Below are positions 3,914 to 60,057 of a DNA stretch of 64,000 nt, piece by piece. The notes below the pieces were generated by a model that was not told the origin of the DNA, did no database searches, and saw nothing but the letters and a program-made list of their open reading frames with translations. Source of the DNA: a virus; IMG/VR virus record IMGVR_UViG_3300047200_000500, positions 1 through 64,000 of that record; one strand, given 5' to 3'. How positions within the stretch are numbered: the first letter of the stretch is position 1; every line of letters starts with the position of its first letter. The translations under genes were made by a program, and so were the position numbers.

Positions 3914-4282
3914 TTATTTCCTTATTTTCTCATTGTTAGATTTTGCTACATTAACTACTTGTTCACGCAATTTAGAGAAACAACTGTCGCATATTTTAAA
4001 TGTTACATTACTATCAACATCATTATGGTCTGGATGTACTGTTATATTATTTATTTCGACATCATTGTTTACATTAGTGTTAGATCCACACATTTTACAT
4101 GATGGTTTATTAACATTAGCTAGTATCTTTGTTAATGCTTCATTTCCTATATCTAAATCCAATACTCTGCCTTTATCTTTATTGTTGATAACAACAGTAT
4201 GGTATACTAATTTATTGTCTTTTATTAAATAATCATTTCCTGACAAGTCACAAATAATTCCTTTTTTACTTGGGTGGAGCAT
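3914..4282 (-). CDS. Small zinc-binding protein
   Basis: 122 residues with CKMCG near residue 62 and CDSC near residue 98, giving a four-cysteine zinc site separated by a long insert. It overlaps the end of the polymerase C-half gene by 17 bases, so it is probably cotranslated with it. Function unknown. Its position directly after the polymerase gene hints at a replication accessory role, which is inference only. Confidence 0.6.
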   Translation of the reverse strand: MLHPSKKGIICDLSGNDYLIKDNKLVYHTVVINNKDKGRVLDLDIGNEALTKILANVNKPSCKMCGSNTNVNNDVEINNITVHPDHNDVDSNVTFKICDSCFSKLREQVVNVAKSNNEKIRK

Positions 4283-6731
4283 TTTTGTTCCTTAATGTCA
4301 TTACACTACAGTTTCTTTGTAAATTAAATGAATGATATTTTTCATTCCACTGCACGGGTACACGGACACCATTTCCAACTTTATAAATTTCTTCATCTTG
4401 AAATCTTATTGAGTCTTCCCAAATTTTTATTGGGTATGTTTCTATGCCATCACTTACTTGATAATTTCTAAATTTTTTACCATTTTTAGTTCTGTTATCT
4501 ACAAATCCTTCAACTATTCCGTCAACGTAATAATCTCCTTCTATTTTAGCATTTTCAAAATTATATTCACTATCATATTCAAATAATTGCATTGGATCAG
4601 TCCAATAAACTCCAAGATATTCTTTCTCGAACATTAATTTTTCTTTTAAAGTATAATCAACAGTTAATGCAATTACATCATTTATTGTTGGAAAATCATA
4701 CCTTGGGCCAATTTTCGGTTCCCAATTAGAAATCTTAGCAGGAATTTTCTTTTTTGGAAATGCTTTTTTGAATTCTGTTGCTTGTCTTTCCTGTTCAATT
4801 TTTATTTTGTCACCAGACCAATCTTTTTCTAATAATATCTTATTAACATCTTCCCTTACTTTATCAGTTTCTTCACTTTTCGATGTATATTTATAAATAT
4901 ACCAGTGCCACAAACCTTTCCTATTTGGCTCTATGTCATCAAAAGCGCCAAGTTTTATTAATCTTTCAGATATAGACTTACTCTTGCCATATTTTATTAT
5001 AAAATCATTAATATCAGAACAAGCACCACCATCTTTACTATATTGCAATGCTGCATTTTCTCCAATACCTTTAATCATGGCTAAGCTAGGATATACATTT
5101 AAATTTTTATCAATCACAAATTTATCTGAAAACATTCCAATTCTTAATGGTTTAAATTTAACTCCTTCTGATTTTGCAACACTCACATGTTTTGGAACTT
5201 TATCAGGGTGGCAATATGTTAAAATTGATGCCCAAAATTCTGGAGGATAATGAGCCTTCAACCATAGTGACCGATATGCTACAATTCCATATGCCATTGC
5301 ATGTGATAAATTGAAACAATATCTTCCAAAATCAACCATTCTTGACCAATATCCTTGAGCAGAATAAAAATCTGATTTTGGGTATTTTCCTTCTTCATCT
5401 GGTTCAGTTGGATCATTTTTAAAACCATTTTTAACCATAGCAGCAATAATTCTAGGTCCAAGCTTTAAGACTTCTTCTTTTTTCTTTTTAGAAACTGCCT
5501 TTCTGGCTTTTTCTGCTTCTGGAGCAGTTAAACCACCAAACTTCATCCACATTGCAGTTAGTTGTTCTTGGTAAACTACCACCCCGAAAGTTGATGCTAA
5601 CAGTTCAGCTACTCTTGGATCTTCTTTTTTCTTCCAAGATTGTTTAGTGTCATCTCTACGAGCAGCCCACTCTGGTATCATTGCCATCGGGCCTGGACGT
5701 GCCATTGCAGTATATGCTACAAGATCAAAAAATGATTTCACTCCATTTGTCAATACACCCTTAGCTACAGGAGTGTCAAATTGGAAGACGGCATCAGTTT
5801 TTATTTGATCTGCCATTTCTATAGCTTTAGGATCATTCATTAATATTTTAACTTTAGTTCCATCAGACAATACCTCATATCCAAAATATGGCTCATCAAC
5901 AGTTGGATCGCTGACACTCCAATCAATTGTTATATCACGAGTTTGTTTTATCAATTGTTCAGTATAAACATTATAAGCCATTGTTTTTAAACCAAGAATA
6001 TCAAATTTTACAAGACCAAATTTGCTCAATTGAGATGAAGCTAAACCTTCTGTCCATTGACTAACATGTTTACCGTTAATAATGCTCATTGGTACAGTAT
6101 CAGCTAAATTAACACTACTAATGATAACCCCACCAGCATGTTGACCTTGAGATTTTATTCTACCCCTCAGTTTTAGCGCCAATTCAATTACTTCACGATT
6201 AGTTTCATAGTACAATCTAAATTCTTCATTAACTGCTGTTATATCATCCAAATCCATATCATCATATTCATTTGGTAAATTCTTGGTTAAAATTAAAGCT
6301 TTGTCCATGTCACCACTGAGAATTCTAACTGAATCAAGAATAGCCTGTTTAGTCCCTAACGTATTCCAGTTACCAACTGTACAAACTTTGTCACATCCAA
6401 ATTTGTTAGATATAAACTGTTTAATTGGATCACGGGCATAGGGAAGCATATCTGAATCAATATCTGGAAATTCCGCTTCATAAGTTATTACATGATTTAT
6501 GTTGTTGACTATTGGATCAACATTGGTTATTTTTAATAAAAAAGGTAACACTAAACCATTCTTATTTGTGTCGTATTTCTTTTTATCAATTACCATCTGC
6601 ATATAATAATCGTTGGCAGCTTGCTTTTCTATTTCCTTTAATTCAAAATCTAATCTTTTAACATATTCTGGGCCAAGTTTTTCTGCCGTCTTGGTAGCAA
6701 ACGACATTATATCGGACCATTCTATAGCCAT
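4266..6731 (-). CDS. dnaE: DNA polymerase III alpha, C-terminal half (palm catalytic Asps, fingers, OB fold)
   Basis: 821 residues. After about 85 lead-in residues come the PDIDSD catalytic motif (two metal-binding Asps), then GLVKFDILGLKT (the third Asp) and the fingers and helix-hairpin-helix regions, then an OB-fold-like C-terminus. Everything before the first catalytic Asp, including the PHP domain, is missing and is encoded instead at 23157-24704. No intein motifs occur at the N-terminus. The lead-in contains a stretch (GLVLPFLLKITNVDP) that resembles the end of the N-half, so the break is overlapping. The two products presumably assemble into one replicative polymerase. Confidence 0.9.
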   Translation of the reverse strand: MAIEWSDIMSFATKTAEKLGPEYVKRLDFELKEIEKQAANDYYMQMVIDKKKYDTNKNGLVLPFLLKITNVDPIVNNINHVITYEAEFPDIDSDMLPYARDPIKQFISNKFGCDKVCTVGNWNTLGTKQAILDSVRILSGDMDKALILTKNLPNEYDDMDLDDITAVNEEFRLYYETNREVIELALKLRGRIKSQGQHAGGVIISSVNLADTVPMSIINGKHVSQWTEGLASSQLSKFGLVKFDILGLKTMAYNVYTEQLIKQTRDITIDWSVSDPTVDEPYFGYEVLSDGTKVKILMNDPKAIEMADQIKTDAVFQFDTPVAKGVLTNGVKSFFDLVAYTAMARPGPMAMIPEWAARRDDTKQSWKKKEDPRVAELLASTFGVVVYQEQLTAMWMKFGGLTAPEAEKARKAVSKKKKEEVLKLGPRIIAAMVKNGFKNDPTEPDEEGKYPKSDFYSAQGYWSRMVDFGRYCFNLSHAMAYGIVAYRSLWLKAHYPPEFWASILTYCHPDKVPKHVSVAKSEGVKFKPLRIGMFSDKFVIDKNLNVYPSLAMIKGIGENAALQYSKDGGACSDINDFIIKYGKSKSISERLIKLGAFDDIEPNRKGLWHWYIYKYTSKSEETDKVREDVNKILLEKDWSGDKIKIEQERQATEFKKAFPKKKIPAKISNWEPKIGPRYDFPTINDVIALTVDYTLKEKLMFEKEYLGVYWTDPMQLFEYDSEYNFENAKIEGDYYVDGIVEGFVDNRTKNGKKFRNYQVSDGIETYPIKIWEDSIRFQDEEIYKVGNGVRVPVQWNEKYHSFNLQRNCSVMTLRNKNAPPK

Positions 6732-23156: not shown

Positions 23157-24704
23157 TTATTTATCCATACTAATATTTAACATATTACCACCTCTAGAAC
23201 GACTAAGGAAACGATCAAATGAAAGTCCAAATTTAAGTGGATCCATACTATTTGTGATTCCAAGTAAGAAACAAACCAAACTCCCACCTGCCGAACCACG
23301 CGATGGTCCAGTTGCCCATCCACTATCATGACTAAATTTAATAATATCTCTCATGATCAAGAAATAAGATTCAAACCCCTTTTCTATAAATCTATCTAAT
23401 TCAATTTTGGCTTGCTCCGCATAAGTAACCATCTTGCTATCAACTTCATATCTTGTGGTATCTTTATACATTCCATTTCTTATTAAAGCTTTCGCCACCA
23501 ACCCCCTCAATATATTAGCTGCATCATCAACATGTGGAAGTTTTGGTTTAGTATCAGCTTTAAATGGTGAACACTTATTAGCTATTTCAAGTGTCATATC
23601 ACATGCTTTTTCAAATTGCTCATTGTTCATTATTTTATCATACCAACATTCTTTATGAGTTGCTCTTAATTCAGCACGATTTTTTAAATATAATTCGGAA
23701 CTAAAATCTTTAATCCCCTTTAAAGTGGTATTTCTCTGAATGGCCAATAATGCTTTATACAAATTAGCATCTTGTCTATTAGCATAATAAACATCATTTG
23801 TAATAACGCACTTTAATTGCTTATTATTGTCTTCCTGATATGAATCCAACAGGCTCATTAAAGTTGACATTCTATCGATATCTGAACCCCAAGGACTGTC
23901 TTGACATCTCATGGTTAGTTCAACATAAAAATCATCGCCAAATTTTTCATCAAACCATTTCATGTAATCATAAGCGCACAGTGTACCATATTCTGGGTAT
24001 TCGATCCCTTTTGTATACCCGAGTTCTATCATTTTATCTAATAAAGTTCCAGATAATATTATCAAGTTCCCATTATTAAACTTTTCAAGCATTTTTCTAG
24101 TAATACGTGGAGTGTAATAAAACCCATCAGACCACGACATTAAATTTAAATTTAACAATTCTTTATATCCCTGCTCGTTTTTAGCTAAGATCGTTATAAT
24201 CGGGGTTTTATTTTTAGAACAAGCATTAATTAAGAACGGGTGATCTTTTAATTGGTTTACAACTTTTTCTATATCATCTCCATCATCATTTTTTTCGATT
24301 GTAATTTTTTCAGATAATTCGCGTCTTTTAACTTCGTAATCACTAAAATAAGCTGATATACCAGCAATAAATTTAATTTTAGTTGATTTTGCAGATGCAT
24401 AACAGTCTGGTATACTTGACATATACCCAACTTCTGTTATTCCAAGAGTATTAACATTTAAGAATTTAGCTTTATTGAATATGTCTTCTGGTTCATCAAC
24501 TCCAGAAAGTGGGCTGAACTTAGTGTGAACATTTAAGTGTATAAAATCGCCGTTACCATATTTTTCTTCGCATTCTTCACGAGTAAGACTGAGCGATCTT
24601 TTATGAACTTTTCTGCGATAATATTTTAATAATACTTTTTGATTGTATGCTTCTTTGAATGATTTATCGTCTCCAAATACTCCGAAATTTAAAACGTCAC
24701 TCAT
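23157..24704 (-). CDS. dnaE: DNA polymerase III alpha, N-terminal half (PHP and start of palm)
   Basis: 515 residues. The PHP domain opens with HLNVHTKFSPLSG (E. coli HLRVHSDYSMIDG); VITNDVYYANRQDANLYKAL matches the later PHP part; GPSRGSAGGSLVCFLLGIT is the palm loop. The chain stops at FDRFLSRSRGG plus ten residues, just before the catalytic Asp motif, which is in the gene at 4266-6731. Several PHP metal ligands are replaced (GITEVGY for TDH, NDVYY for NDVHY), so this domain is probably not a nuclease. It overlaps dnaQ by four bases (ATGA), so the two are translated together. Confidence 0.9.
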   Translation of the reverse strand: MSDVLNFGVFGDDKSFKEAYNQKVLLKYYRRKVHKRSLSLTREECEEKYGNGDFIHLNVHTKFSPLSGVDEPEDIFNKAKFLNVNTLGITEVGYMSSIPDCYASAKSTKIKFIAGISAYFSDYEVKRRELSEKITIEKNDDGDDIEKVVNQLKDHPFLINACSKNKTPIITILAKNEQGYKELLNLNLMSWSDGFYYTPRITRKMLEKFNNGNLIILSGTLLDKMIELGYTKGIEYPEYGTLCAYDYMKWFDEKFGDDFYVELTMRCQDSPWGSDIDRMSTLMSLLDSYQEDNNKQLKCVITNDVYYANRQDANLYKALLAIQRNTTLKGIKDFSSELYLKNRAELRATHKECWYDKIMNNEQFEKACDMTLEIANKCSPFKADTKPKLPHVDDAANILRGLVAKALIRNGMYKDTTRYEVDSKMVTYAEQAKIELDRFIEKGFESYFLIMRDIIKFSHDSGWATGPSRGSAGGSLVCFLLGITNSMDPLKFGLSFDRFLSRSRGGNMLNISMDK

Positions 24705-25276
24705 TGTTTAGGCTCGTCAAAGCTAATTGATTTCATCAATTTTGACATACATTGAGCGGAAGCTATAGCGTCAGCCAAAGCTGCATGTGCTTTAGCATTT
24801 TCTACTTTAAAATGATCACATATTACGCCTAAACTATCTCCTAAATGAGATATCTTCTTTTTGATTTTATAAGCTAGCCATAATGAAATTAAGTCTATCC
24901 AATTATTGTGAATATATGGGAATACATGATAAATATCGCACTGTGAGAAAATAAAACTTTTATCAAATTCGGCGTTTTGTGCCACCATAATTGGCTTGCC
25001 ACCAGGACTTACTGATTTTAACCAATCATTCCATTCTTTTAATCCAACTTCTGGATGAACAGCAGTCTTATCCCATACTGCCTGATTATAATGCCCTATT
25101 TCTAATGCGTCAGGGTTTGCCTTATCCATATGTTGAATGATAAATCGTTTATGGAAAACATTTCTGGCATCAACAGAAAAATCATCCTTTATCAATATGC
25201 AACCAATTTCGGTAATCTCAGCGCCATCAACTGGATCTAATCCAGTGGTTTCAGTATCGAGAAAAATAATAGGCAT
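24701..25276 (-). CDS. dnaQ: DnaQ-type 3'-5' proofreading exonuclease (Pol III epsilon-like)
   Basis: 191 residues of the DEDDh family: DTETTG (7-12), QNAEFDKSF in the middle, and HAALADA near the end provide the four acidic residues and the catalytic His. It is coupled by an ATGA overlap to the alpha N-half, matching its role as the proofreading subunit. The degenerate PHP site of alpha makes this the probable only proofreader. The promoter-like TGTATTTAAA lies five bases before the ATG. Confidence 0.92.
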   Translation of the reverse strand: MPIIFLDTETTGLDPVDGAEITEIGCILIKDDFSVDARNVFHKRFIIQHMDKANPDALEIGHYNQAVWDKTAVHPEVGLKEWNDWLKSVSPGGKPIMVAQNAEFDKSFIFSQCDIYHVFPYIHNNWIDLISLWLAYKIKKKISHLGDSLGVICDHFKVENAKAHAALADAIASAQCMSKLMKSISFDEPKQ

Positions 25277-25280
25277 GATT

Positions 25281-25290
25281 TTTAAATACA
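25281..25290 (-). promoter_or_regulatory. Late-promoter-like element before dnaQ
   Basis: TGTATTTAAA on the minus strand, ending four bases from the dnaQ ATG. Same core as the elements at 42521, 48463 and 13006. Confidence 0.4.
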
Positions 25291-25291
25291 G

Positions 25292-25323
25292 TTTGGCCCG
25301 CCCAATTTATAAGGCGGGCCAAA
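25292..25323. terminator. GC-rich hairpin after the histone-like gene
   Basis: An 11 bp stem (25292-25302 with 25313-25323), whose inner 8 bp are all G or C. It separates the small histone-like gene from dnaQ. No clear T-run follows on the minus strand, so it may stop transcription only partly or protect the upstream message. Confidence 0.55.
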
Positions 25324-25330
25324 AAGATTT

Positions 25331-25546
25331 TTACTTGGCTTTGCTTGGTTTGATGATTTCTTGAATGGCCTGCCGTATCGGCGTAATGCTCTTTTTGATA
25401 CCGTTGAAATTATTTCTGGCGTTCCTGGCTGCTGACTTGTTACCTTCCATAATCTTGGGAATTAATACCTCAGTTTCAGTGACTAAGTTCTTGATTGATG
25501 TAAACAGTTCGTTTACTGTGGTTTTGTAATCAGGGGTTTCGCTCAT
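25331..25546 (-). CDS. Small histone H1-like (Hc1-type) protein
   Basis: 71 residues. The C-terminal half, GNKSAARNARNNFNGIKKS followed by spaced basic residues and KPSKAK, matches the short Hc1-like proteins of Chlamydia and Bacteroidetes, whose core is GNKxAGxRARK. These bind and compact DNA. The gene is richer in G and C than its neighbours and is followed by a strong hairpin, both signs of high expression. A nucleoid- or DNA-packaging-related role is inferred. Confidence 0.55.
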   Translation of the reverse strand: MSETPDYKTTVNELFTSIKNLVTETEVLIPKIMEGNKSAARNARNNFNGIKKSITPIRQAIQEIIKPSKAK

Positions 25547-25549
25547 GTT

Positions 25550-25813
25550 TTATTCCTTGGGTTGGTTGTTTTCTAATTCTTCGATTAGCTTTGTAAATTC
25601 TTTGTCATCTAATATTATAAATTCAGTATATTCATTTATTGCAGATAATTTTATTTTTAATATTTCGCGTTTCTTAATTGGTCTATTTATATACTTAGCC
25701 GACTTTAGTCTGTCAGAAAGTATTTTTCTTACAATATTTTCTAATTTTGGATTATTTTTGGTATTGTAATTTATTGCCAAGTTGGCAAAGAATAAGTCAT
25801 TTACTTGTCTCAT
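25550..25813 (-). CDS. Hypothetical basic protein
   Basis: 87 residues, Lys- and Ile-rich, with two likely helices and a short acidic end. No motif is recognised. The start overlaps the end of the next upstream minus-strand gene by 17 bases, and the stop lies three bases from the histone-like gene start, so all three are probably on one message. Confidence 0.6.
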   Translation of the reverse strand: MRQVNDLFFANLAINYNTKNNPKLENIVRKILSDRLKSAKYINRPIKKREILKIKLSAINEYTEFIILDDKEFTKLIEELENNQPKE

Positions 25814-26192
25814 TGTTCAATGATTTAAATTTGGCTTCATCCCAAAAATCAACTACTTTGCGTGATTTTGTTTCATATGCCATATAATTACCAAATTCAT
25901 ATTTTTCATTAACTTTTCTGATATAATAATCACTACCACAATAAATCCAATAACCAATTTTAGAATTAGGATCAAAGTTTTTTATTTTGGTACCATTCAT
26001 TTTTGGCTGATTAGAAACTACAAACATGAATTTCTGTTTGGCATTAGGATTCTTTTTTAAATAATTTGTATCAACTTGACATCCGCCCTTTTCATAAATT
26101 TCAATAAGTTTGGGTTTCAATAGTTTATCAATAATATCGTCATCTACTTGTTTGAATACTTGAAGGTATTTGGGTATAGCGATTTTGGCCAT
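25797..26192 (-). CDS. Hypothetical protein
   Basis: 131 residues with two beta-rich stretches (KFMFVVSNQPKM, IGYWIYCGSDYYIRKVN). It loosely resembles small WGR-type or ligand-binding domains, but no assignment is justified. It begins a three-gene minus-strand run ending with the histone-like gene. AGTATATAGAGT directly precedes the ATG. Confidence 0.55.
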   Translation of the reverse strand: MAKIAIPKYLQVFKQVDDDIIDKLLKPKLIEIYEKGGCQVDTNYLKKNPNAKQKFMFVVSNQPKMNGTKIKNFDPNSKIGYWIYCGSDYYIRKVNEKYEFGNYMAYETKSRKVVDFWDEAKFKSLNNETSK

Positions 26193-26204
26193 ACTCTATA
26201 TACT
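26193..26204 (-). promoter_or_regulatory. Late-promoter-like element
   Basis: AGTATATAGAGT on the minus strand, abutting the ATG at 26192. Similar to AGTATATATAAC before the start at 51514. A message from here would be leaderless or nearly so. Confidence 0.35.
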
Positions 26205-26219
26205 AGCAAAGGTAGAAGT

Positions 26220-26228
26220 GTATTTAAG
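26220..26228 (+). promoter_or_regulatory. Promoter-like element for the structured RNA
   Basis: GTATTTAAG, the same core as elements before protein genes. It would place the RNA 5' end near 26234, where the first long-range stem begins. Alternatively these bases form the first small hairpin (GTATT/AATAC). Confidence 0.35.
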
Positions 26229-26745
26229 AATACGGTCTGTTTAAAACGTTCCCTTATTCTCCCAAGGATAAGCATGCAGCAATGCATGGGTTCAGACCTT
26301 AAACTCAACCGGTTCACGATTTGGGATTCGTTCTAAGAACGTCTTAAAATCCTGGAAAGACAGAGTGCCCCCGGTACAGTTAGCTAATTTACTGCCGGTC
26401 CTTTACGCAGCTACCATCGGTCGATGGGTTACCCATTTCACTATGGGTTTGCGGAGCCTAGGAACTCCGCAGCAGTTGGGCCTTTTCCAGGTCAGGGAAC
26501 TCCAAAGCCTTTTAATAGGCAACATAGGTTCAGTACCTGGCACTCCAAGCGAGATCCAACTCGCAAAAGAAAATACCCGTTGGTTTAAGACCAATGGACA
26601 AAATAAAAACAACTAAAAAATAACCAATCAGCGTAAGCTGGGTTTAGCTAGTTTTCGAAAATAATATTTGTCCTCCTGACTTGCGGGATTTAAATTTTCT
26701 TTTGCCCTCTAAGAACCTAAAATTCTTAGTTGCAGTTGGAGGGAA
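26220..26745 (+). ncRNA. Large highly structured RNA, unclassified
   Basis: About 530 bases with no good gene and visibly more G and C than the surroundings. Stems in order: GGTCTG 26234-26239 with CAGACC 26293-26298, enclosing CTTAT/ATAAG (26253/26268) and CATGC/GCATG (26273/26284); CGTTC/GAACG (26329/26337); CCGG-CAGT with ACTG-CCGG (26371-26398); a 7 bp TGCGGAG/CTCCGCA stem (26450/26465); GCGAG/CTCGC (26549/26560); an 8 bp stem (26577-26597); CAGC-GTAA-GCTG (26629-26640), a GNRA tetraloop only on the plus strand; CTAAGAA/TTCTTAG (26709/26723). The 5' end carries a GTATTTAAG promoter-like site. Size and style recall the phage-borne ornate RNAs ROOL and GOLLD; identity is not established. 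Confidence 0.6.
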
Positions 26746-26764
26746 TTAGATCTATTTCAATCAA

Positions 26765-28186
26765 ATGTATTTCATAAAAATGAATAATTTATTTATTAAA
26801 AAAGCAAAACAAATTCACGGTAAAAAATATGATTATTCATTAGTTAATTATATTAATAATAGAATTAAAATAAAAATTATATGCCCAGTACATGGAGAAT
26901 TTGAACAAATACCACGTGATCATCTAAGTAAAAAAGGATGTATTAAATGTGGTTTAAATTTTAAATCAAAAGATGATTTTGTTAACAAAGCAATTGAGAT
27001 TCATAAAGATAAATATGATTATTCAAAAGTTGATTATAAAACTAGTAAAATTAAAGTAAAATTAATATGTAAAAAGCATGGTGAGTTTGAACAAAGACCA
27101 AACGATCATTTAAAAGGATATGGTTGTCCAAAATGTGGCTTTAATTTGTTATCGAAAAATGATTTTGCAAATAAATCTTCTGAAATTCATAATGACAAAT
27201 ACGATTATTCAAAAGTTGATTATCAGAATAATAAAATTAAGACTAAAATAATTTGTCCAGTTCATGGTGAATTTGAACAAACACCTGTCAATCATTTGCG
27301 TGGTAACGGTTGTCCAAAATGTGGCGCAGAAATTGTTATATCTAAGGCACACCAAGAGATAATTGATTTAATTGAAGAAGATAAAATTATTAATGATCGT
27401 GAAACAATAAAACCAAATGAACTGGATATTTATATCCCTTCTAAAAATATTGCTATTGAATTCAATGGTTTATACTGGCATAGCTATGACGAATTAGAAT
27501 CTAAAAAAGAAAAGTTTAAACATCATAACAAATCTTCAATTTGTTATGATAAAGGAATTCAATTAATTCAAATTTTTGAAGATGAATGGTTGTTTAAAAA
27601 AGAAATTGTAAAATCAATATTGAATGCAAAACTTGGTATTAATAATAAGATATTTGCTCGTAAGTGTTTCATAAAGGAATTAACATCAAATGAATTTAAT
27701 GAATTTTGCAATAATAATCATATTCAAGGTAAGCTTAATTCAGTAATAAAACTAGGATTAATACACGAAAATAGACTAGTTTGCGTTATTGGTTTTAATA
27801 AACACTGTGAATATGATTATGAATGCACAAGATTTTGCAATGAGCTTAATATCAACATCGTAGGTGGAGCAAGTAGACTATTTAAATATTTTTTGAATAA
27901 ATGGAAACCAAATTCAGTTTTATCATTTGCTGACAGACGATATAGTAATGGTGGTTTATATAAGCAATTAGGATTTAAATTAATTAATGTAACAAGCCCT
28001 GGTTATTTTTATACTAAAGGACTAAATAGATTATCACGCCAAAAATTTCAAAAACATAAACTTGAGAAAAAATTAGAAAATTTTAATTGGGGCCTTTCAG
28101 AATCACAAAATATGTTTAATAATGGATATAGGAGGTTATGGGATGCTGGGCATTGGAAATTCGTATGGAATGTAGATAATATATGA
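26765..28186 (+). CDS. Homing endonuclease: three zinc-ribbon repeats, Vsr-like nuclease, Mom-like domain
   Basis: 473 residues. Three 58-60 residue repeats (each with KYDYS, a C..HGEFEQ segment and KCG; DUF723 type) fill residues 8-187. A PD-(D/E)xK nuclease of the Vsr/EDxHD kind follows (NELDIYIPSKNIAIEFNGLY, then QIFEDEW). The last 150 residues (VCVIGFNKH, TRFCNEL, LSFADRRYSNGGLYKQLGF) resemble the GNAT-like fold of Mom. The gene follows the structured RNA and overlaps the next gene by four bases. Start 26765 or the ATG at 26780. Confidence 0.75.
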   Translation: MYFIKMNNLFIKKAKQIHGKKYDYSLVNYINNRIKIKIICPVHGEFEQIPRDHLSKKGCIKCGLNFKSKDDFVNKAIEIHKDKYDYSKVDYKTSKIKVKLICKKHGEFEQRPNDHLKGYGCPKCGFNLLSKNDFANKSSEIHNDKYDYSKVDYQNNKIKTKIICPVHGEFEQTPVNHLRGNGCPKCGAEIVISKAHQEIIDLIEEDKIINDRETIKPNELDIYIPSKNIAIEFNGLYWHSYDELESKKEKFKHHNKSSICYDKGIQLIQIFEDEWLFKKEIVKSILNAKLGINNKIFARKCFIKELTSNEFNEFCNNNHIQGKLNSVIKLGLIHENRLVCVIGFNKHCEYDYECTRFCNELNINIVGGASRLFKYFLNKWKPNSVLSFADRRYSNGGLYKQLGFKLINVTSPGYFYTKGLNRLSRQKFQKHKLEKKLENFNWGLSESQNMFNNGYRRLWDAGHWKFVWNVDNI

Positions 28187-37597: not shown

Positions 37598-39751
37598 TTA
37601 TAAGCCACCATGGCAATTAGAGCAAGCTGATACTATATATCTAGCTACAGTTAAATCTCCAAAATCTGTTGCATTACCAGTTGATGCTATTGTGACATAA
37701 TCGATGACATTTTTTGCTGTACCTCCTTGATTTCCCCCGCCAAATACTCCTCTTAGTGAACTAGAACATGCAGAACCCCATCCTTTATCAGTTGTTAAAT
37801 CTCCAAATGTTGTAGCATTACCAGTTGAAGCTATTGTTATATAGTCTATAAAATTAGCACTTTCTATGCCACCACCAAATAATCCTCTTGTTGAATTTGA
37901 GCAACCAGCTGGAGTACGTCTTGAAATCGCTAAATTTCCAAAATCTGTAGCATCTCCAATTGAAGATATAGTAACATAATCAATTGTATCAGTTGGTCCA
38001 GTTCCACCACCAAATACCCCACGTGTTGTACTAGAAGAACTGCCTAATGACCCTCTGGCAACAGTTAAATCGCCAAAATCTGTAGCATTACCAGTTGAAG
38101 AAATTGTAATGTAATCTATGACATTACTAGCACTGCCACCCCCAAATAGCCCTCTTGTAGAACTAGAGCAACCTGCAAAACCATCTCTTGCAACTGTCAA
38201 ATCTCCAAAATCAGTTGAATTGCCACTAGTTAATATTGTTACATAGTCAATAATATTTATTGGTGCAAATGAATCATCTTGACCACCACCGAATACCCCT
38301 CTGGTTGAACTTGAACATGATGCTGTGCCATACCTTGAAACTCCTAAATCACCGAAGTCTGTAGCATTACCAGTAAAAGCTATTGAAATGTAGTCAATGA
38401 TATTAGTGATAACAGATAATGCAGTATTATAACCACCTCCAAATATTCCTCTTTGCGAATCGCCAGATGATGAAGATTCAGACGATAAACTTCGTGAAGA
38501 TGTACTAGAAGATGAATTAGATGAAGGTGAGGTAGGTGTTGAGGCAGTTGACTTAGAGGATGAACTTGATGAATTAGATGAAGGTGAAGTAGGTGTTGAA
38601 GCAGTTGACTTAGAAGATGAACTTGATGAATTAGAAGTGGGAGAGGTGGGAGAAGTAGGTGTTGAAGCAGTTGACTTAGAAGATGAACTTGATGAATTAG
38701 AAGTGGGAGAGGTGGGAGAAGTAGGTGTTGATAAAGAAGATGATTCAGATGAAGGCGAGGTAGGAGAAGTAGGCAATGAAAGAGTTGATAAAGAAGATGA
38801 GCTTGATGAATTAGAGGTGGGAGAAGTTGGATATGAAGGAGTTGATAAACTTAATGATTCAGATGAAGGTGAGGTAGGAGAAGTAGGCAATGAAAGAGTT
38901 GATAAAGAAGATGAACTTGATGAATCAGAAGTTGGATATGAAGGAGTTGATAAACTCAATGATTCAGATGAAGGCGAGGTAGGAGAAGTAGGCAATGAAA
39001 GAGTTGATAAAGAAGATGAGCTTGATGAATTAGAGGTGGGAGAAGTTGGATATGAAGGAGTTGATAAAGAACTTGATGAGTTAGATGAAGTAGTTGATAA
39101 ACTTGATGATTCAGATGAAGGCGAGGTAGGAGAAGTTGGAGATGAAGGAGTTAATAAAGAGAGTGATGATAGTGATGAAGATAATGAATTATTGTAAGAC
39201 TTACTGGAAATTGATAGAGAAGAATCAGATTCTGATTTACTTGATGGAAAAGATTTTGAGGAAGACGAATTTGAATCATTTGATGAAGATGAAGAATAAT
39301 TTATCTCTGTTGGACCGCTAGATCCAGTTGTTGTTTTTTCAAAATGGACGAATAATGATGTTATATCTCCATAATCTTTTTGATAAATTAATAATTTGTT
39401 GTTTTTATAAAATTTACTTTCTTGTATTGATTTAATGTAGTTTACTATATCATCTAAATTGTTAATATCAATTTTATTATTTATAAACAAATAAATGCCA
39501 TATCTTGGTTTTAATAATTTACTTGTTTTTATTAAAGAGTCTTTAACCAATCTATAAACAGTGTATTCATCTGAATTTATTGATAATAATGTTATCCCTG
39601 TTAACTTTATTGATAATTTTTTATATTCATTGTTACACACTAATTCATAGTGATTATTGTTATAACTATATAAATCATCTATTTTTATTACTAATAATAA
39701 CTTGTTTAATCCTATTTCAGACGGAGAGGTTGGTTGGCCGAGGTTTGTCAC
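37598..39751 (-). CDS. Virion surface/fibre protein: Ser/Thr/Pro linker plus six-repeat beta-propeller
   Basis: 717 residues. The N-terminal 150 form a folded region with no known match. Residues about 150-430 are a Ser/Thr/Pro-rich linker of near-identical blocks (SPTSP, SSSSLSTLSLPTSP). Residues about 430-717 contain six 40-50 residue repeats, each R-G-[VLI]-F-G-G-G ... IDY[IV]TI ... GNATDFGDLT, the pattern of a Kelch-like six-bladed propeller. Such a stalk-plus-head plan suits a host- or glycan-binding fibre. Confidence 0.75.
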   Translation of the reverse strand: MTNLGQPTSPSEIGLNKLLLVIKIDDLYSYNNNHYELVCNNEYKKLSIKLTGITLLSINSDEYTVYRLVKDSLIKTSKLLKPRYGIYLFINNKIDINNLDDIVNYIKSIQESKFYKNNKLLIYQKDYGDITSLFVHFEKTTTGSSGPTEINYSSSSSNDSNSSSSKSFPSSKSESDSSLSISSKSYNNSLSSSLSSLSLLTPSSPTSPTSPSSESSSLSTTSSNSSSSLSTPSYPTSPTSNSSSSSSLSTLSLPTSPTSPSSESLSLSTPSYPTSDSSSSSSLSTLSLPTSPTSPSSESLSLSTPSYPTSPTSNSSSSSSLSTLSLPTSPTSPSSESSSLSTPTSPTSPTSNSSSSSSKSTASTPTSPTSPTSNSSSSSSKSTASTPTSPSSNSSSSSSKSTASTPTSPSSNSSSSTSSRSLSSESSSSGDSQRGIFGGGYNTALSVITNIIDYISIAFTGNATDFGDLGVSRYGTASCSSSTRGVFGGGQDDSFAPINIIDYVTILTSGNSTDFGDLTVARDGFAGCSSSTRGLFGGGSASNVIDYITISSTGNATDFGDLTVARGSLGSSSSTTRGVFGGGTGPTDTIDYVTISSIGDATDFGNLAISRRTPAGCSNSTRGLFGGGIESANFIDYITIASTGNATTFGDLTTDKGWGSACSSSLRGVFGGGNQGGTAKNVIDYVTIASTGNATDFGDLTVARYIVSACSNCHGGL
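38450..39190. repeat. Tandem repeats coding the Ser/Thr/Pro linker
   Basis: Blocks of roughly 60-120 bases recur several times (for example units with GAGGTAGGAGAAGTAGGC and GATGAACTTGATGAATTAG). They are in frame with the fibre gene on the minus strand and also open a spurious plus-strand frame. Copy number could vary between isolates. Confidence 0.8.
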
Positions 39752-58483: not shown

Positions 58484-58563
58484 GTCATATTTATTTTTGA
58501 TAATTCTTTTAGATAAATATAAGTATTTTATACCTGAATATTATTCATGGGCAAATATAAAAT

Positions 58564-60057
58564 ATGACTGAAAAAATAGAAATCATTTGTGAAAATTGCG
58601 GAAAAAAAAGATTAATAACAAAAAAATCTTTTTTAAGAAACAAACGTGATGGTATTAAAAAATGTATGCATTGTTATAATGATGAAAATTATAAAAGCAT
58701 GATGTCAATAAAATCAAATAAAGCTTGGTTATCAGAAGATTTAAAAAATAAAGTAAGAAATATTTCAAAAAATTGGGCATATAATAATAGAAAAATTATA
58801 TCAGAAAAAATGAAAGAAATTTGGAATGATGATGATTACAAATTAAATCAGATAATAAAACAAAAAATAACTCATCCAAAAATTATTAAAATATTAAAAT
58901 ATAAAAAATCTATTGATGAGTTAAAAAACGAAGCATCAAAAAAAACTAGTGAAATATGGAAAAATAAAAATTATATCAATAAACAAATTGAAATACATGA
59001 ACATCAAAAAGTTGATAATGATTTTAAAAGAAAAATATCGGAATCATTAAAAATAAAATGGAATGATGAAGATTATAGAAATAAAATGAAAATAATGTTT
59101 TCTGAAAGATTAAAAAAATTATGGAAAAACGATGAATATAGAATAAAAGCTATAAAAGCGATTGAATCAAGTAAAGGTAAAGTTTCTAGTATTGAAATTG
59201 TTTTAAGTTCTATTTTAGATGATTTAAAAATCAAATATGAATTTCAAAAATCAATCGGGTTTTTCATATTTGATTTTTTATTACCAGATTATAATATATT
59301 AATTGAGTGTAATGGTGATTATTGGCATTCGTTACCGAAAGCTATTAAAAATGATAAAGCTAAATCATCATATATTACAAATAATTTTTCAGAATATAAA
59401 CTACATTATATATGGGAACATGAATTTAAATGTAAGGATAAAGTTGTTGAATTAATTAAATATTGGACAGGAACCAAATTTGATATGATTGATTTTGATT
59501 TTAAAGATTTGATTATAAAAATTACTGAATTAAAAGATGCTAGATTATTTGTTGATAAATACCATTATTCTGGAACAATAGGAAATTCAACATATAGATA
59601 TGGTTGTTATTTAAATAATGAATTAATAGCTTTATGTTCATTTGGAAATATAACGAGAAATGAATCAGCAATAAGATTAAATATGAAACTTAACGAATTG
59701 CTTGAACTTACAAGATTTTGTATTCATCCAAAATATCAAAAGAAAAATTTTGCAAGTTGGTTAATTAGTAGATGTATTGATGAAATTAAAAAACTTAATA
59801 AATATAAGTGTTTAATATCTTTTGCTGATACTACTTTTAATCATAATGGTACAATATATAAGGCATCAAATTGGATAAATGATGGAGTTGTTTCTCCAAG
59901 TTATTGGTATATTGATAAAGATGGATATGTGATGCACAAGAAGACATTATGGGATAATGCAAAGAAAATGTCTATGACTGAGAATGAATATTCATGTAAA
60001 TATTGTTATAAGAAAATCTCTGGAAAAGAGAAAATCAGGTATGTTTATTATTTGTGA
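58564..60057 (+). CDS. Homing endonuclease: zinc finger, repeat DNA-binding region, Vsr-like nuclease, Mom-like domain
   Basis: 497 residues. An N-terminal zinc finger (CENC, CMHC) is followed by four spaced 'S..[LMT]K..W.[DNK]..Y' units (about residues 75-200), like NUMOD3 DNA-binding repeats. The nuclease part (FFIFDFLLPDYNILIECNGDY, then LHYIWEHEF) is of PD-(D/E)xK/EDxHD type. Residues about 320-450 (YHYSGTIGN, LTRFCIHP, FASWLISRCIDE, LISFADTTFNHNGTIYKASN) match the GNAT-like Mom family. Very AT-rich and lying between the primase and the baseplate genes. Confidence 0.75.
   Translation: MTEKIEIICENCGKKRLITKKSFLRNKRDGIKKCMHCYNDENYKSMMSIKSNKAWLSEDLKNKVRNISKNWAYNNRKIISEKMKEIWNDDDYKLNQIIKQKITHPKIIKILKYKKSIDELKNEASKKTSEIWKNKNYINKQIEIHEHQKVDNDFKRKISESLKIKWNDEDYRNKMKIMFSERLKKLWKNDEYRIKAIKAIESSKGKVSSIEIVLSSILDDLKIKYEFQKSIGFFIFDFLLPDYNILIECNGDYWHSLPKAIKNDKAKSSYITNNFSEYKLHYIWEHEFKCKDKVVELIKYWTGTKFDMIDFDFKDLIIKITELKDARLFVDKYHYSGTIGNSTYRYGCYLNNELIALCSFGNITRNESAIRLNMKLNELLELTRFCIHPKYQKKNFASWLISRCIDEIKKLNKYKCLISFADTTFNHNGTIYKASNWINDGVVSPSYWYIDKDGYVMHKKTLWDNAKKMSMTENEYSCKYCYKKISGKEKIRYVYYL

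Follow-up and report, generated by a model that had tools for sequence, protein, structure and literature searches.

A stretch of the + strand running from about 26234 to 26697-26745 probably represents a genuine structured, non-coding RNA of a phage, and the explanation we favour, with a confidence slightly better than even, is that it is a stand-alone, trans-acting one. The window, by which we mean the whole stretch of DNA that was analysed, comprises bases 1-64000 of a 169,621-base IMG/VR virus record. Judged by its terminase, which matches T4-like phages, the record is a T4-like tailed phage; the best terminase match is Flavobacterium phage immuto (29.5% identity), from which a Bacteroidota host may be guessed. 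Few large structured RNAs are known from phages, and to our knowledge ROOL and GOLLD are still without established function. If the present RNA were another independent class, its predicted start, together with a promoter class that tells of timing, would help show what such RNAs do; as one sequence without relatives, its first value is that of a well-delimited candidate. The locus is composed as follows:

25797-26192, - strand: divergent gene of 131 amino acids (codon score +0.26)
26220-26227, + strand: promoter motif GTATTTAA, of the class GTATWTWA, recognised by enrichment upstream of genes
26234-26745, + strand: candidate structured non-coding RNA of about 470-510 nt (fold z -4.05, non-coding, in the sole large GC-rich gap)
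26765-28186, + strand: Hef-like free-standing homing endonuclease with zinc-finger repeats (Pfam DUF4379, 1.6e-10; DUF723, 1.1e-6)

The non-coding gap and its folding

Between the divergent gene and the homing endonuclease lies a gap of 572 nt (26193-26764; G+C 0.42). When ORFs were catalogued across the entire record, it proved both the longest and the most G+C-rich of the true non-coding gaps, the next-longest having about 350 nt or less and a G+C near 0.3. This ranking leaves out gaps made by cutting the record into pieces, and also an apparent large gap at 167-169 kb, which is occupied by a fibre-like ORF that runs off the end of the record. The preliminary description had held that some 530 bases here carry no plausible protein and are clearly richer in G+C than their surroundings, and both statements are borne out: the G+C is 0.44 in the RNA region and 0.21-0.30 on both flanks, and the ORFs inside the gap score like non-genes, with codon log-odds of -0.26 to -0.46 (phage ORF median +0.22) and a GC3 of 0.44-0.49 (phage ORF median 0.22). 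A protein-coding gene in the gap was accordingly rejected: codon use is not phage-like, a Pfam scan of the ORFs gave no match, and a PHROGs scan of three of them gave a single match, at E 0.09.

Measured against dinucleotide-preserving shuffles (n=100), the + strand folds far better than expected (-161 kcal/mol vs -136.1 +/- 6.2; z -4.05, 0 of 100 as good), and the - strand of the same region does so more weakly (z -3.32). Non-overlapping perfect hairpins of at least 5 bp number nine, about 2.5 times expectation (3.7 +/- 1.7 in shuffles, 2 of 300 of which reach nine), and a perfect 12-bp long-range pairing is present, a length that 4 of 300 shuffles attain; the count of other long-range pairings of at least 7 bp is ordinary (62 of 300 shuffles). 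Two segments, 26480-26600 (z -4.31 on + vs -1.69 on -) and 26545-26710 (-3.65 on + vs -1.85 on -), have strand-specific z values, and for that reason the 3' half, on the + strand, is the best-supported structured part. For 26232-26360 and 26345-26548 the local z is only -1.9 and -2.5, with the strands alike. The many stems described earlier are thus real insofar as perfect hairpins exceed those of shuffled sequence, but the local folding of the 5' and central parts is weaker than that account implied.

These weaker parts, in which much of the folding reaches a z of only about -2, are what one might expect if the region had arisen by chance or were a relic, G+C-richer DNA that was imported or has decayed and whose hairpins are incidental, and conservation cannot be shown. 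We nevertheless regard such an origin as distinctly unlikely, as z stays at -4 against shuffles that control for composition, a phage-type promoter is precisely placed, and there is no protein trace.

Promoter, predicted start and neighbouring genes

The promoter-like sequence previously placed at the 5' end (in its longer form GTATTTAAG, 26220-26228) stands up well, for within 50 nt upstream of genes its class reaches a density of 1.97 per kb, about 20-fold above coding DNA (0.094 per kb in sense, 0.067 in antisense), and in 11 of 17 upstream copies GTATWTWA ends 5-7 nt before the start codon, the distance being exactly 6 nt in eight of these cases. A relative that is about 75% identical at the nucleotide level preserves one GTATWTWA promoter with its spacing; among those so preserved there are a GTATATAA promoter and an AGTAAATATAAA promoter. 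Copies of GTATWTWA are found before DnaQ, the C part of DnaE, a DnaB-like helicase and other replication-type genes. A second class, GTAAATA, lies similarly close to the start codon (mostly 3-8 nt before it) and is found before ORFs adjoining the terminase and before a fibre-type gene; we infer that GTAAATA is a late class and GTATWTWA an early or middle one.

Because the motifs lie so near the ATG, transcripts probably begin at or beside it, and this closeness, along with a Shine-Dalgarno-like sequence in only 22 of the 176 genes of the whole record, suggests that leaderless transcripts are widespread in the phage. The 6-nt spacing rule puts the predicted transcription start at G26234 (+/-1), the first base of GGUCUG; the transcript of a stand-alone RNA would therefore open with the very base that starts a helix, a coincidence that is not built into the spacing rule.

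The neighbour described earlier as a homing endonuclease was correctly recognised: it is 37.8% identical to the 'putative Hef-like homing endonuclease' of Tenacibaculum phages PTm1/PTm5 and appears to carry an EDxHD/Vsr-type nuclease part, and its start is likely the ATG at 26780, 5 nt behind a candidate promoter, GTATTTCA. Free-standing homing genes of the T4 type commonly lie between conserved genes (PMC2988022). Being directly upstream of this gene and on the same strand, the RNA might be its long structured 5' leader, the transcript continuing into 26765-28186 and the fold restraining or regulating translation; GGAGGG at 26738-26743 can pair in a 3' hairpin, and T4 homing endonucleases are regulated at the levels of transcription and translation (PMC2988022). 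We consider a leader unlikely, however. In three Hef-like relatives from other phages the gap upstream of the endonuclease is 11, 50 and 87 nt (at most about 90 nt before the start), so for those three the RNA is ruled out as a fixed component of the endonuclease cassette; moreover, the other DUF723-like ORF of the record (122473-123900) starts directly after an ORF, a terminator-like site is present at 26674, and, having a candidate promoter to itself, the endonuclease has no need of the RNA as a leader. The endonuclease is probably a neighbour unrelated to the RNA. On the other side, the 131-aa gene is preceded, at a distance of 3 nt from its ATG, by a promoter-like GTATATAG, and it has no relatives in Pfam, PHROG, INPHARED or IMG/VR.

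The position of the gap in the genome bears on another explanation, a replication-origin-associated element in which the transcript would serve as an R-loop or primer, or in which the hairpins would act as DNA at the origin. The genome-wide cumulative GC skew has its minimum at 26750 (250-nt steps) with a flat bottom at 25000-27000, and DnaQ and the N-terminal part of DnaE are 1-3 kb away. Yet the genes change strand at the very place of the minimum, and at 38500 the curve dips again almost as far (-776 vs -804), so the skew is accounted for by gene direction; known origin signatures were not identified, and the 3' half folds in a strand-specific manner, as an RNA would. An origin element is therefore rather unlikely in our judgement.

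Three further features of this part of the phage genome were observed. At 38500-39000, inside the ORF 37598-39751 on the - strand, an abrupt G excess on the + strand raises the cumulative skew by about 150 in 500 nt. DNA polymerase III alpha appears to be split into two genes 16 kb apart (23157-24704 and 4266-6731, both on the - strand), one part holding PHP and the start of the polymerase NTPase domain and the other the rest, with an overlap within that domain. Between DnaQ and a 71-aa Hc1-like gene lies a GC-rich inverted repeat (25277-25330), ggcccgccttataaattgggcgggcc, followed on the - strand by GTATTTAA and then the DnaQ start; the fold z on the - strand is about -3.0 to -3.5.

Predicted anatomy of the RNA

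The candidate RNA can be divided into a 5', a central and a 3' domain, with the following elements:

26234-26298, + strand: 5' domain, GGUCUG/CAGACC closing two hairpins (from pair probabilities)
26329-26341, + strand: hairpin CGTTC-TAA-GAACG (pair probability 0.87-0.95)
26351-26545, + strand: central domain of up to four hairpins plus hairpin 26507-26520 (from pair probabilities)
26380-26387, + strand: self-complementary loop segment UUAGCUAA (read from the sequence)
26457-26462, + strand: self-complementary CCUAGG in the loop of hairpin 26449-26472 (read from the sequence)
26563-26705, + strand: 3' domain with the perfect 12-bp helix GCAAAAGAAAAU/AUUUUCUUUUGC (probability 0.91-0.95)
26674-26700, + strand: terminator-like hairpin TCCTGACTTGCGGGA followed by TTTAAATTTTCTTTT (from a pattern scan; weak)

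The sequences of the GGTCTG/CAGACC helix proposed earlier are present, at 26234-26239 and 26293-26298, and enclose hairpins 26253-26272 and 26273-26288 (pair probability 0.93-0.98). The helix itself has a probability of 0.99 if the transcript ends at 26300 and of 0.02-0.7 in longer transcripts; partition functions for different transcript ends conflict on long-range helices. Where one GNRA tetraloop had been noted we find two: GCAA at 26279-26282, which caps hairpin 26273-26288, and GUAA at 26633-26636.

In the central domain, the hairpins across 26414-26472 (26414-26427, 26431-26448 and 26449-26472) and 26507-26520 have a probability of at least 0.92, and 26371-26398 one of only 0.4-0.7. Two possible long-range pairings, 26351-26358/26484-26491 (8 bp) and 26363-26369/26539-26545 (7 bp), would together form a pseudoknot, which we propose tentatively because pairings of such length are no rarer in shuffles. 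The segment UUAGCUAA, which is also complementary to 26644-26650 (7 bp), might make a kissing contact, and the CCUAGG loop might allow dimerisation. The 12-bp helix of the 3' domain encloses hairpin 26577-26597 and an arm, 26611-26653, that bears the GUAA tetraloop. The 3' end of the RNA is placed loosely, at 26697-26745. One possible end, weakly indicated, would be the terminator-like site, whose hairpin part is 26674-26688 and whose U tract doubles as the 3' strand of the 12-bp closing helix; such sites number two in the region, both strands counted, against 0.5 expected.

For the stand-alone RNA we propose that the phage promoter fires early or in mid-infection, as its motif and spacing suggest, and that the 5' domain, by computation, closes co-transcriptionally; the remaining domains—a cluster of hairpins in the centre and a 3' arm rich in A—would then fold, as computed with some uncertainty. 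The RNA would work as a folded molecule rather than as a message: our guess is that it acts as a scaffold or decoy for a protein of host or phage, perhaps in an oligomeric form held together via the self-complementary loops.

Known RNA families and the sampling of relatives

In style the RNA resembles the large ornate phage RNAs, although membership in any class is not demonstrated. With ROOL (RF03087; model length 574) it shares a phage-borne location, size, many hairpins and the lack of a protein; it differs in having neither a match to the covariance model nor nearby tRNAs. ROOL assembles into an RNA-only cage. Both ROOL and GOLLD are often near tRNA islands (PMC12286853), a tendency that is not strictly defining. 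GOLLD (RF02032) is likewise a large phage RNA with many stems, and the symmetric kissing loops known from it are conceivable here; the candidate has no match to its model, however, and many GOLLD members exceed 800 nt. Moreover, GOLLD rises during lysis (PMC12286853), whereas the promoter class of the candidate is that found before replication genes. OLE RNA, also large and ornate, is dimeric through a symmetric self-complementary loop contact (PMC12286853), but OLE is not a phage RNA and the candidate has no Rfam match. As a genuine though minority possibility, we suggest a large phage RNA of a class not yet described, made when the replication genes are expressed and not at lysis, multi-domain and possibly forming a self-associating particle.

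The suggestion of a ROOL- or GOLLD-like RNA in the preliminary description found no support, as neither covariance model matched anywhere in the whole record at E<=10 and ARAGORN reported 0 tRNA or tmRNA genes in the window and the rest of the record, on which ground a tmRNA or tRNA was rejected as well. The silence of the ROOL model is weak evidence alone, control genomes being silent too; ROOL was also absent from full Rfam scans of the region. Searched against Rfam for these families and for group I and II introns, as had been advised, 7 kb gave no match at E<=1, and the region itself at E<=10 gave only HIV_GSL3 (E 2) and algC (E 8.3), both at chance level and far below gathering scores. 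No Rfam intron model matched the region at E<=10, nor did the RF01998 (group-II-D1D4-1) model; with the gap lying between two divergent intact ORFs and no interrupted gene around, a group I or group II intron was rejected, and by eye the order of the group I intron pseudoknot does not fit. A divergent member of ROOL, GOLLD, group I/II introns, RNase P RNA or tmRNA, beyond detection by the models, would agree with the size and style of the RNA and with the adjoining homing endonuclease; against the negative Rfam, ROOL, GOLLD and ARAGORN results, and with no interrupted gene nearby to mark an intron, we hold it to be highly improbable.

Homologues, which the preliminary description had hoped to gather, were found in none of the INPHARED, PLSDB, IMG/VR and GTDB scans nor in 396 sampled Bacteroidota genomes, and its statement that the RNA has no clear relative holds across phage, plasmid, IMG/VR and sampled Bacteroidota sequence. 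Blastn against 50,697 phage and 72,556 plasmid records (INPHARED, PLSDB) returned nothing at E<=1 and two chance-like matches at E 7. Exact-pattern scans, IMG/VR and GTDB included, gave chance seeds only, with alignments barely extending past the seed, and the eight matches checked all lie inside long open frames. Two single-sequence covariance models (R1 and R2) found only the RNA itself among 8 named phages, 6 related contigs and the 396 genomes; they are insensitive to distant homologues because they rest on one sequence. Within its own genome the element has no repeated copy at E<=0.001, the matches there being 15-base chance ones (E 0.27).

In IMG/VR only three closely related contigs were found, with a terminase that is identical in one and 83% identical in two. 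They align collinearly with stretches of the record lying in the range 51.9 kb to 95.8 kb, and none covers the RNA region (26193-26764); with the 131-aa gene, DnaQ, the N part of DnaE and the terminase as baits, only three closely related contigs were recovered, none reaching that region, and no terminase relatives were found in GTDB genomes. As so little of this phage group has been sampled, the lack of RNA relatives is weak evidence.

Elsewhere in the record, an ORF at 58564-60057 on the + strand matches the Pfam Mom family (1.1e-28) and, weakly, REase_MTES_1575; the relative of about 75% identity apparently lacks it, the alignment blocks flanking the ORF at positions 58522 and 60065 of the present phage's own sequence. 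At the record end (piece L015, 1896-5621) a large serine-rich ORF runs open, with G+C climbing to 0.57 at the end and repeats reminiscent of BspA/DUF285-type surface or fibre proteins.
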